NCBI RefSeq assembly: GCF_947496515.1
Contig: NZ_CANMDB010000004.1
Coordinates: 186,001 to 250,000 of the forward strand
Direction: 5' to 3'
DNA length: 64,000 nt
Source of the DNA: an uncultured Roseobacter sp.
GTDB taxonomy: Bacteria; Pseudomonadota; Alphaproteobacteria; Rhodobacterales; Rhodobacteraceae
The number at the start of each line of letters is the position of its first letter. Position 1 is the first letter of the stretch. Shown here in pieces: positions 14,555-56,557 of the stretch. The notes under the pieces are model-generated. The model was given only the letters and a program-made list of their open reading frames with translations, did no database searches and was not told where the DNA came from. The position numbers were made by a program, and so were the translations under genes.

Positions 14555-15153
14555 GCGATCAGGGCCGTTCAAACGTCGGTTTTGCCGTCGGTATCGCGTC
14601 GGTCTTACGTCGGTATGACGTCGGTGCGCCGCGCGCGCTGCGTTGGGGTTTTCTTTACGCGGGTCTCGCGCTGCTGCTCGCCTGTGCACCGCCACCGCAG
14701 AGCTTTCGCGACGGCGCCGTGCCGATCACGGCGAGCACGCGGTTTACGCCCGAAGCCATTGCGGGCGACTGGCACGTGATCGCCGCCTACGCCAGCCCGC
14801 TCTGGCCCGGCTGTGCGGATCAGCTTTGGCAGATTGACAGCGCAGCGACGGAGGCGCGGCTGATGGTGCGCTGCGGCGGGCGGGTCCGGCTGGACGCACC
14901 GCTGGAGGTGGATGCGCGCGGCGTGATGCAGGTGCGGTCAGGCGCGCTCGACCGGCCCGCGCGGGCGCTGTGGGTGATGTGGCTGGCCGAAGACCGGCGG
15001 ACTGCGGTCATCGGCACCCCGGGCGGCGAGATGGGGTGGATCGTCAACCGCGCGCCCCGCCTTGCGCCCGACCGGGCGACCGCAGCCCGCGCGATCATGG
15101 CGTTCAACGGGTATGACATTGCCCGCCTGCCGGGCGCGGAACCCGGATCGTGA
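14551..15153 (+). CDS. Lipocalin-like outer-membrane lipoprotein in the carnitine operon
   Basis: A 200-residue protein with a lipobox (ALLLACAPP, lipidated Cys near residue 48) and a lipocalin opening motif IAGDWHVIAAY near residue 70, with a conserved Trp and a distant pair of Cys. ATG 14551 overlaps the upstream stop, and its own stop overlaps the next start (GTGA), so it is embedded in the carnitine operon. Lipocalins bind small hydrophobic or amphipathic ligands; a role in handling carnitine esters would be speculative. The first 30 codons, before the hydrophobic signal, are encoded largely by an 11-bp tandem repeat (14575-14630), making an unusually long n-region; the true start could lie later at a non-ATG codon. 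Confidence 0.65.
   Translation: MSDQGRSNVGFAVGIASVLRRYDVGAPRALRWGFLYAGLALLLACAPPPQSFRDGAVPITASTRFTPEAIAGDWHVIAAYASPLWPGCADQLWQIDSAATEARLMVRCGGRVRLDAPLEVDARGVMQVRSGALDRPARALWVMWLAEDRRTAVIGTPGGEMGWIVNRAPRLAPDRATAARAIMAFNGYDIARLPGAEPGS
14575..14630 (+). repeat. 11-bp phased tandem repeat, copy A
   Basis: Five units beginning GTCGGT, spaced 12, 11, 11 and 11 bp (starts at 14575, 14587, 14598, 14609, 14620). Two units, GTCGGTATCGC and GTCGGTATGAC, occur identically at 45002-45056, 30 kb away. Here the array lies inside the 5' end of the lipocalin-like gene. Confidence 0.85.
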
Positions 15154-44920: not shown

Positions 44921-45001
44921 CGCTGTGGACTAGCATCACGGGCGTTGGGAGGATTTCCCACTGATCCCGCGATCCGTGGGATTTCATTTTTTCGGCATCC
45001 T

Positions 45002-45056
45002 GTCGGTATCGCGTCGGTATGACGTCGGTATCGCGTCGGTATCGTGTCGGTGCTGG
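45002..45056. repeat. 11-bp phased tandem repeat, copy B
   Basis: Five units of exactly 11 bp starting GTCGGT (45002, 45013, 45024, 45035, 45046): ATCGC, ATGAC, ATCGC, ATCGT and GCTGG follow in turn. It lies between the HD-hydrolase stop (45080) and icd (start 44828, minus strand). Two unit types are identical to those at 14575-14630. Confidence 0.9.
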
Positions 45057-55129: not shown

Positions 55130-55206
<77 letters not shown>

Positions 55207-55319
55207 CCTTTCTACAATGAGATCAACGGCGTATGTCTCGCTCTTGCGTGCGGTCCGTGGAGTTTTCTCAGCGGTTCACGCGCCCGGTCTGACTGCCCCC
55301 GGCGTTGGAGAAGCCCATG

Positions 55320-55640
55320 GTCCCGATAAGCGACAAGATTGATGCTGTGCCGAACGACGTCGGCGGACGTTGCGATAGGCTTGCGGTTAAACGAGATCCG
55401 ATGAGCGATGATTGTCGCCGTATCCCCAAAAGCACGACATGGCGTTCCGGCGGAACAAGATGTTCGCGTCCGTGCAGGTTTACAATCAAGGGCGCCGTTG
55501 GTGTGTATCTGAGACCTGACCCTGCTACAGCCGAACTTGACGTGCCAATGACGCGCAACGTTCGACACATTGGCTATGTGGGTGAGAGGATCCTGAGATC
55601 AAACTCAAGACTGGAAATGACATGGCAAACATAGATGCAC
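55320..55640 (+). pseudogene. Remnant of a DUF5655-domain protein
   Basis: Two reading frames together resemble the end of DUF5655 (predicted transport/nuclease-associated) domains: one frame gives HDMAFRRNKMFASVQVYN (about 55433-55485), then another gives AVGVYLRPDPATAELDVPMT and RNVRHIGYVGE (about 55495-55590). In intact proteins these are continuous, so a frameshift seems to lie near 55485-55500, and the upstream part is broken by stops. No start or ribosome site is evident. This looks like an eroded gene next to tRNA-Arg. A similarity search with both frames joined would settle it. Confidence 0.45.
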
Positions 55641-55710
55641 CAATTGCCGCCAGCTGCGCAGCCATCCATGGATGGACCTGCCTCACATCGTATTTATCCA
55701 ATGAAATCAA

Positions 55711-56058
55711 TGTGCAGTAGCGGGTCAGAATAGAGCGTGTTCGGACCGGGGTTCTGATCGTTTTCCTCCAGAAAACGACCGCCTATATCTATCGAAGGTG
55801 CTGCGGCATCATTCCTTGAATGAGCCTGTGGCGGGGTGAACGGCAAAGCGTTCGAACCTTCGATGCTCTCATTGCATCTACGATGCAACTGCCGCTCAGG
55901 TTTTCGATCTGAAGGCAACCGGCGTTTCTGCTCCAGAAAAGCCTGTGGCGGACCTGACGGGAGAGAGTTCGAACCTAGGAAGCTCTCATCGTTTCTGCGA
56001 AACGACTGCCGCCCTGCTCTTTGTGTCAGATGGTTTTGGCGTTTCTGTTCCAGAAAAG
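55711..56058 (-). repeat. Three 117-bp tandem units downstream of tRNA-Ser, with conserved hairpins
   Basis: Reading away from the tRNA 3' end, units lie at 55942-56058, 55825-55941 and about 55711-55824 (most diverged). Each has a CCTGTGGCGG end (tRNA-like CGCCA in the minus sense; only the first two units keep it fully), a T-loop-like TTCGAACC (TTCGGACC in the third) and a hairpin 18-21 nt further. Stems TCGTTTC/GAAACGA (55989-56005), TTGCATC/GATGCAA (55872-55888) and TCGTTTTC/GAAAACGA (55759-55779) are all perfect. A second hairpin GGC-N-6bp-3nt-6bp-GCC recurs at 56038-56060, 55921-55943 and 55805-55826. Confidence 0.8.
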
Positions 56059-56062
56059 CCTG

Positions 56063-56152
56063 TGGCGGAGACGAAGGGATTCGAACCCTCGAGACCCTTC
56101 CGGGCCTACTCCCTTAGCAGGGGAGCGCCTTCGACCACTCGGCCACGTCTCC
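56063..56152 (-). tRNA. tRNA-Ser (GCU)
   Basis: A 90-nt class II tRNA with encoded CCA: acceptor GGAGACG pairs with CGTCTCC, anticodon arm CTCCC-CTGCTAA-GGGAG gives anticodon GCU, a long variable arm follows and the T-arm reads AGGG-TTCGAAT-CCCT. The 3' end points to lower coordinates, directly into the 117-bp repeat array. Confidence 0.97.
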
Positions 56153-56557
56153 GCTGCCGGGTATAGCCGTCGCGTGCGGACAGATACAAGCTGAAATCGC
56201 GACAAACTTCTTTACGGGTCACAGCTGGTCCCAATGCTGTCCACGTCGGATAGGGGGTGGCGGTGTGGCACCGGGGAGCGTATCGGCCCGGGCTTGCCGC
56301 TGCGCGGTGGGTCGAACGCCAGCAGGATGAGTTTTCATCAGGAACGGTGCGCTGCAAGAGGCTCTGAACGTGCACACGAGGGGGTTGATCGCCCTGCAAT
56401 GCCCTCTACCGCAGGGGTAAAGGTTAACGGTGACGTGGCGTATTTACCAACTGGGAAGTCAGATCGCAATTTTGCGCAAATTTATGCTAGTTTTTTCTCT
56501 CGAAGCGCTCTAACGCGATCGAATTGTAAAGTAATGAGTAACCTAAGTGAGGTCGGG
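56153..56557. other. Intergenic region with AT-rich promoter-like segment
   Basis: No gene was seen in 405 bp. The last 120 bp are AT-rich and contain the perfect palindrome TTTGCGCAAA (56471-56480) followed by TATGCT, a plausible promoter with operator for the VPLPA-type gene. Confidence 0.5.

Follow-up and report, generated by a model that had tools for sequence, protein, structure and literature searches.

Tandem repeats behind a tRNA-Ser gene of a Roseobacter as the possible tRNA-docked form of a dispersed hairpin element

The window analyzed here is a stretch of 64,000 nucleotides from an uncultured Roseobacter sp., and on its minus strand a tRNA-Ser(GCU) gene is followed directly by a tandem array of three repeat units (Table 1). 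Each unit opens with CA and runs through a first small hairpin (HP1), a spacer, a core hairpin, a few nucleotides and a TTCGAAC-like motif to a tail with the end CCGCCA (CGCTA in unit 3). The initial annotation had described three 117-bp units marked by a CCTGTGGCGG tract at 55825, 55942 and 56059, and the sequence bears out the tract and its 117-bp spacing. Units 1 and 2 are indeed 117 nt long, while the third measures 111 nt and is decayed, with TCCGAAC for TTCGAAC, CGCTA for CGCCA and GGCG/CAGA for GGCA/GAGA. The compensated stem changes it had pointed out, from TCGTTTC/GAAACGA to TTGCATC/GATGCAA and from TTTCTG/CAGAAA to TCATTC/GAATGA, are present as claimed.

Table 1. Features of the tRNA-Ser(GCU) array in the 64-kb window. 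R1, R2 and R3 are models described in the text.
Feature	Position	Strand	Evidence
tRNA-Ser(GCU), anchor gene	56063..56152	minus	ARAGORN and Rfam RF00005, 59.8 bits
Unit 1, 117 nt: CA, HP1, spacer, core hairpin, tRNA-like tail, end CCGCCA	55946..56062	minus	R1 E 2.8e-28 (unit 1 is in the R1 training set)
Unit 2, 117 nt, layout as unit 1	55829..55945	minus	sequence and R1 (unit 2 is in the R1 training set)
Unit 3, 111 nt, decayed, end CGCTA	55718..55828	minus	R1 57.4 bits (own training set), R2 23.7 bits
HP1 of unit 1, GGCTTTTCTG-GAA-CAGAAACGCC, 2 bases past the tRNA CCA	56038..56060	minus	sequence, fold
HP1 of unit 2	55921..55943	minus	sequence, fold
HP1 of unit 3, arms TCATTC/GAATGA	55805..55826	minus	sequence, fold
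Core hairpin of unit 1: outer stem, GGCA/GAGA internal loop, 8-bp inner stem with TCGTTTC/GAAACGA	55977..56017	minus	R3 58.1 bits, E 1.2e-14 in the window (one of the 40 R3 training rows)
Core hairpin of unit 2, inner stem TTGCATC/GATGCAA	55860..55900	minus	R3 48.8 bits, E 6.9e-12 (also an R3 training row)
Degenerate core hairpin of unit 3, GGCG/CAGA	55750..55783	minus	sequence
tRNA-like tail of unit 1, TTC to CCA 28 nt (23 nt in the tRNA itself)	55946..55973	minus	comparison with tRNA end
tRNA-like tail of unit 2, TTC to CCA 28 nt	55829..55856	minus	sequence

Single units folded only slightly better than their dinucleotide shuffles (z -1.48, -2.32 and -1.25), values so near the shuffles that one unit alone is little proof of structure. 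Neither promoter-like nor terminator-like sites turned up at 55200-56400 in a simple scan. At Rfam 15 gathering scores the window and ten related loci gave tRNA and RNase P only, with no family in the unit sequence; the sub-threshold matches within 55690-56170 were Plastid-psbl-rps4 (E 0.023, plus strand, over the tRNA), UPD-PKc (E 1.1) and sX4 (E 1.3). The core of unit 3 gave no match at E<=1 to the core model R3 in a search of the window, and units 1 and 2, used as a DNA query, had zero matches in plasmid and phage collections. Elsewhere in the window, GC-rich 21-bp tandem repeats at 956-1136 perhaps code for a repetitive stretch, and dispersed 11-bp repeats of the type GTCGGTATC/T lie at 14573-14625 and 44992-45051, with similar runs at locus L062 of the same genome.

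Copies of the unit occur elsewhere in this genome (G000), where a DNA search found 11 places. The model R1, built from 13 own-genome units, starts after the upstream CCA and contains the tail; it found 19 places at E<=1, of which the 13 strong ones (E<=1.7e-13), three in the window and 10 others, are its training units, and one of the weaker places lay on contig C17 (L062, E 3.4e-6). A survey of the DNA downstream of all 36 tRNA genes found with RF00005 placed full units after the Ser tRNAs GCU (three), GGA (two) and CGA (one) and the Leu tRNAs UAA (two) and CAG (one), that is, behind 5/9 Ser/Leu tRNA genes versus 0/27 other tRNA genes; tRNA-Ser UGA is followed by an HP1-only remnant. Ser-type units are 117 nt long (unit 3: 111) and end in CCGCCA, CCGCTA (unit 3) or, in one case, CTCGCCA, and Leu-type units are 111 nt long and end in CCGCACCA, CCGCGCCA or, once, CCGCGCAA. 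Four further Leu-type copies are orphans at three places, C1:736k (two copies), C5:12.7k and C15:2.3k. Those at C1:736k lie near reading frames named from their sequence as relaxase- and VirD4-like, and the C15 orphan, about 2 kb away from tRNA-Leu(CAG) and the unit behind it, is preceded by 16 nt that copy the end of this tRNA with one mismatch.

The tRNA-Ser(GCU) gene was located in 18/19 genomes of the genus, and units follow it only in G000 and in one other (G103). In the remaining 16/18, different DNA begins directly after the CCA, in several of them with integrase-like frames recognized by eye. Across the genus, the 3' side of tRNA-Ser(GCU) resembles an island site (L292-L308).

It could be that the units are attachment-site debris, leftovers of islands that integrated into tRNA 3' ends and each left behind a copy of the tRNA end. 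The different DNA and integrase-like frames behind tRNA-Ser(GCU) in those 16 genomes are in keeping with this, as is the near-copy of the tRNA-Leu(CAG) end in front of the C15 orphan, but a conserved, covarying core, and the cores in tuf and groEL 3'UTRs and in IS genes that are described below, would be left unexplained. Islands account for the orphans and not for the unit, which weakens this explanation, and we consider it very improbable.

Outside the own genome, R1 matched in 6/100 genomes of the family and 4/19 of the genus, G000 being counted in both. Four of its seven matches in other genera begin directly after a tRNA, namely tRNA-Val (L045), tRNA-Thr (L046, L049) and tRNA-Arg (L051); the other three (L043, L044, L047) have no called tRNA, and L043 is preceded by a truncated tRNA 3' half. 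In the other genus genomes all six matches (L063-L068) start right after a tRNA, for Leu, Ser (four) and Thr. A broader model of 17 diverse units, R2, which includes the upstream CCA (R1, R3 and the core pattern used below do without it), matched in 25/394 family genomes, behind Leu, Ser, Tyr, Thr, Val, Ala, Arg and Ile tRNAs. Among the retrieved loci, which were chosen for matching so that the figure is not a rate, a unit lies directly downstream of 77/138 distinct CCA-ending tRNA genes; these tRNAs are Leu 24, Ser 17, Thr 9, Ala 7, Arg 5, Val 4 and Tyr 3, with eight others once each. The link with tRNA-Ser(GCU) as such, suggested by the initial annotation, is not supported: units stand behind many different tRNAs in the own and in other genomes.

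A tRNA-blind scan of genome contigs with a core pattern gave at least 83 matches at at least 80 loci, with 59 distinct sequences among the matches listed. Among the 83 listed, 53 lie no more than 200 nt downstream of a same-sense tRNA, 46 of them at 27-60 nt, one is near a tRNA in another arrangement (L165) and 29 are near none; matches in coding-looking DNA (L162, L174, L184) may be due to chance. The Rhizobiaceae MAG PL25a_bin.161 (G411) holds 16 copies, 10 of them located by script, with six retrieved copies not located. Eight of the 10 lie behind tRNAs for seven amino acids (Gly, Thr, Ser, Arg, Ala, Asn, Leu and Leu) and two behind none, and flanking sequence that by eye is shared among the copies points to spread between tRNA loci.

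The complete tRNA-docked unit is about 110-117 nt long, begins right after the CCA, usually carries HP1 and often ends in a tail with CCA. Since the tRNA-like tail itself ends in CCA, a following unit meets an identical junction. At a number of Rhodobacteraceae and Rhizobiaceae loci (L047, L089, L100, L044, L155, L246-L251) a second palindromic stretch, variable and reading roughly CGCCTCCGACGGGGCGGCCTGACCGGCCGGCGCGC, was seen by eye after the core; Rfam gave only tRNA on five of these loci (L047, L089, L044, L155, L248).

What stays invariant is the core hairpin, in which a 4x4 internal loop GGCA/GAGA separates an outer stem from an inner stem of about 8 bp that is capped by a 3-nt loop; changes in the stems are compensated. 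The three stem pairs that the core pattern leaves free are paired in 53, 58 and 55 of the 59 distinct listed sequences, against shuffle maxima of 37, 50 and 49. In an alignment of 40 selected cores, 63 double-change cells were counted versus 25.2 (sd 4.3) after shuffling and 6-28 in slid controls. Note that these are the 40 of 85 cores with at least 7/8 pairs, so that their 98.1% pairing is partly due to selection; the test at the free positions serves as the unselected check. Within the 13 own-genome units, the inner stem holds 8 double-change cells versus 2.6 shuffled, with 0/500 shuffles as high, and three pairs with double changes, a number matched by 101/500 shuffles. RNAalifold on the own units recovered the core and missed HP1, which was misaligned between the Ser and Leu types. 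On the tRNA-sense strand, the inner stem minus its closing pair showed 31 G-U versus 3 A-C combinations, the score used to locate the stems having itself favoured pairs; the set was 80 R2 matches less four weak or partial ones, giving 76 cores, of which a score of at least 34 kept 67 (57 distinct). In a gammaproteobacterial MAG some inner stems are quite different in sequence and GGCA and GAGA are retained. The initial annotation had read the hairpins as a sign of structural selection and not of simple decay, and this is upheld for the core, whose stems covary across genomes: on strong evidence, coming from other genomes and not from the own units, the core hairpin is judged to be under structural selection.

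The core-only covariance model R3 (40 training rows) matched in 68/394 genomes of the family and in 8/385 of the class, three of these eight being from the own family; these two tallies and those of 6/100 and 25/394 given above come from stricter filters and include G000 itself. Ten genomes picked for having matches carried 2 to 16 copies each. Named hosts include Roseobacter sp. MH60115, Octadecabacter algicola and Pseudooctadecabacter jejudonensis, and matches in gammaproteobacterial, Solirubrobacteraceae and Verrucomicrobia MAGs may reflect contamination. Related hairpins with GTCA/GAGA were observed in Azospirillum sp. TSO22-1 (L261-L264), as head-to-head inverted pairs in 3/4 loci, and a search near these four loci found no tRNA.

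An HP1-like hairpin starting no more than 7 nt from the CCA is present in 50/77 units versus 7/60 control tRNA trailers, and its pairing shows little bias (8 G-U versus 4 A-C). For 41/77 units, those whose tail reaches a CCA at 29-34 nt, the 12 nt preceding this CCA share 6.17 identities with the unit's own tRNA versus 4.59 when shuffled, and 0/5000 shuffles were as high; for single units, identity ranges from 12/12 in L149 through 8/12 in unit 1 of the window to two or fewer in five units. The commonest tail measures 28 nt from TTC to CCA, 5 more than the tRNA, and TT or TC stands exactly 28 nt before the CCA end in 27/77 units. Judged by these comparisons, the tail is tRNA-like, tends to a length of its own and is pulled towards the local tRNA. 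Since it is closer to the upstream tRNA than to other tRNAs, exchange with tRNA ends is likely.

A tRNA or tRNA-like structure, with an acceptor stem closing the unit and pairing in a T-arm, was considered and rejected. No consistent acceptor-like helix between spacer and tail was found in 22 units, the best 4-bp helix being 61% paired against a mean of 34%, and the earlier suggestion of tRNA-like decoys, if these are to have an acceptor stem, is not supported. Relics of a tandem tRNA duplication had also been proposed. Here the tRNA-like tail, nearest to the upstream tRNA, stands in favour, and a unit of 117 nt is close to a tRNA plus spacer, but the core and HP1 have no apparent tRNA counterpart, there is no acceptor stem, the core is conserved across genera and beyond the family, and its covariation speaks against decay. 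Cores moreover occur away from tRNAs and as clean insertions, which does not support mere relics. That the units are decayed duplicates is accordingly extremely improbable to us.

Insertions of the core were seen in transposase genes. In one genome (G013), each of six IS3 copies (L376-L381) contains four hairpin inserts of 38-40 bp, two per strand, and the coding segments between them remain open. Pseudorhodobacter turbinis and Phaeobacter inhibens lack inserts at the corresponding sites, and the alignment reveals no visible target duplication. All six copies share the inserts, indicating that the IS multiplied after gaining them. An IS5-type gene in another genome (G305) carries one 38-bp insert at a site that is empty in Paracoccus saliphilus and Sphingomonas hankookensis. 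Silent removal of the inserts from mRNA, a thought prompted by the open segments and by the inserts being common to all six copies, was rejected, as 0-2 synonymous versus 0-5 non-synonymous changes between copies give no sign of selection and half of the inserts are antisense. The first IS inserts found scored about 30 to 37 bits with R3 and have only the core in common with the tRNA unit, so that common descent of the short and long forms is likely and not proven.

A different kind of site was found in Pseudooctadecabacter jejudonensis (G163), where a copy of HP1 plus core lies antisense within the first inner helix of RNase P RNA (L108:253-642, minus strand; RF00010), which we take to be P3. 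The same helix spans about 20-35 nt in eight congeners. An alignment with five congeners gave a gap of 77-78 nt; the helix itself differs, so the borders of the copy are not fixed. Presence and absence at one site among relatives, with clean borders, was found for the 38-40-bp form at IS3 and IS5, and what these alignments demonstrate is the mobility of the short forms and not that of the tRNA unit as a whole.

One interpretation of these inserts is that they are REP-type elements moved in trans by a Y1/HUH (RAYT) transposase. The 38-bp size and build, an imperfect hairpin with a fixed block of mismatches, the lack of target duplication and the head-to-head pairs in Azospirillum sp. TSO22-1 would all suit such an enzyme. 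However, the Y1 transposase domain (PF01797) was absent in 11/13 element-bearing genomes searched, including the own genome and G411 with its 16 copies (G013 and G305 lie outside the 13), and the enzyme may have been lost or may belong to another family. We regard this as an improbable origin.

The core was also found in the 3'UTRs of protein genes. It lies in sense directly after the stop codon of EF-Tu (tuf) in seven genomes (L093, L284, L229, L333, L345, L354/L355, L358/L359; EF-Tu was identified by Pfam in six and by its last residues in L333), of GroEL in six records (L113, L118, L156, L175, L177, L227; Pfam in four), of L16 (rplP) in three genomes (L335, L339, L346; checked by Pfam) and, once, of an ABC-F gene (L347). 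A hairpin that by eye resembles a terminator comes next in 6/7 EF-Tu, 6/6 GroEL and 3/3 L16 cases, the exceptions being L333 and L347. The layout stop-HP1-core is kept in the tuf, groEL and rplP 3'UTRs, while the HP1 sequences are apparently unrelated. One groEL 3'UTR (L113:866-1180, minus strand) holds four units 93 bp apart, each then followed by a terminator-like hairpin (by eye), the fourth of which is different. A set of 32 examined loci comprised six EF-Tu, three L16, one ABC-F, four with an upstream tRNA (L342, L362, L364, L366), seven IS genes (L344, L348-L353) and eleven unplaced.

It could be that function came first, with HP1 and the GGCA/GAGA hairpin forming a conserved 3'-end RNA module of translation and folding transcripts (tRNAs, EF-Tu, L16, GroEL, ABC-F), and with a limiting RNA-binding protein or nuclease setting 3'-end processing or stability at a site that tandem units multiply. 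The in-sense cores right behind the stop codons of these four kinds of gene, the retained stop-HP1-core layout, the invariant internal loop and the 31 to 3 excess of G-U over A-C in the inner stem argue for this. Set against it are the antisense core in rnpB, the cores inside transposase genes and the patchy range, with 68/394 family genomes matched by the core model. The G-U bias would fit a hairpin of single-stranded DNA too, the locating score favoured pairs and the bias in HP1 is small (8 versus 4); moreover, the gene search covered just the strand that carries the element, which keeps the number of sense cases at protein genes from being a fair test of orientation. Such a module is possible, if somewhat unlikely.

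We prefer, with about even confidence, to read the array as a dispersed, mobile and structured hairpin element in its tRNA-docked form. Once folded, either as RNA or as single-stranded DNA, the hairpin would be recognized by a factor that places it preferentially in sense where strongly transcribed genes end. Where tails match the local tRNA, recombination would let arrays grow, shrink and homogenize, and in the window the tRNA-Ser transcript would extend through the units as a trailer, to be removed by cutting at the CCA. Two sources of the sense orientation at tRNAs are conceivable: the element may enter the non-template strand of active genes, or an RNA role may have been selected. It is plausible that the element has an RNA role at 3' ends. 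Against the mobile-element reading, copies at tRNAs lie in sense and the HP1-core layout recurs in tuf, groEL and rplP 3'UTRs, both of which resemble RNA function more than mere mobility. The absence of a Y1/RAYT gene, the obvious mobilizing enzyme, from 11/13 genomes and the lack of plasmid or phage matches to the two units also count against it. A more speculative proposal, which we consider unlikely, combines the two: a mobile hairpin would have been domesticated repeatedly in alphaproteobacteria as a 3'-end RNA module, with tRNAs, EF-Tu, L16, GroEL and ABC-F forming one regulon under one RNA-binding factor and the number of units acting as dose.

These loci belong to a large and apparently undescribed family of small hairpin elements, found in many bacteria at the ends of tRNA genes and of some further genes in heavy use. 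To our knowledge, tRNA-end repeats behind a tRNA were known from one E. coli locus only (rtT); here, an rtT-like anatomy appears in dozens of genera, together with a diagnostic structural core and visible insertions. This opens to testing the origin of such arrays, tRNA trailers as functional RNAs and what recognizes the 4x4 GGCA/GAGA loop, and with a covariance model for the core the element could be annotated in genomes in which it escapes Rfam. A literature search, with subscription journals largely outside its reach, found no description of this element.

Several known systems are similar in part. RNAs of the 3'ETS-leuZ type derive from the 3' external transcribed spacer of a tRNA and may be processed off and act; set beside the element by description, they share the position of an RNA behind a tRNA, and we know of none with repeat units or of a family across tRNAs. 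Rickettsia palindromic elements are mobile palindromes of about 100 bp in alphaproteobacteria, found inside genes and stable RNAs. Compared by description and not by sequence, they resemble the element in being palindromic, mobile and alphaproteobacterial; they differ in belonging to another lineage, and no docking at tRNA ends is known to us. With the REP/BIME repeats and their RAYT enzymes the element shares a short imperfect hairpin with a conserved mismatch, dispersed copies and a 38-bp form without target duplication. REPs carry a GTAG-type head. The element differs in lying mostly in sense at tRNA 3' ends and in genomes of which 11/13 lack RAYT.

The closest likeness in anatomy is to E. 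coli tyrT/tyrV (RtT, rttR, RF00391), to which the initial annotation had aptly compared the array. The RF00391 model found no gathering match in the window and none at E<=5 in 55690-56170, and the same model gives 137.5 bits on E. coli. Conversely, R3 on 2.5 kb of E. coli reached at best 7.4 bits (E 0.38), the three repeats taking ranks 1, 2 and 4 in a chance-level list of 24, and similarity between the rtT sequence and the units was not above that of shuffles. Homology with rtT was rejected on these covariance models and the shuffle test. The E. coli locus also differs in its 178-bp unit, its restriction to one locus and its other structure, and its repeats copy the last 19 bases of the tRNA, compared with 8/12 before the CCA in unit 1 of the window. 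In both systems, nevertheless, a class II tRNA gene is followed at once by tandem repeats that each end in a copy of the tRNA 3' end, and, by eye, a small hairpin stands two bases past the CCA. Covariation analysis of RtT is reported in two papers to show a helix framing tandem GA, which recalls the GGCA/GAGA loop of the element (PMC7657543, PMC8250186).
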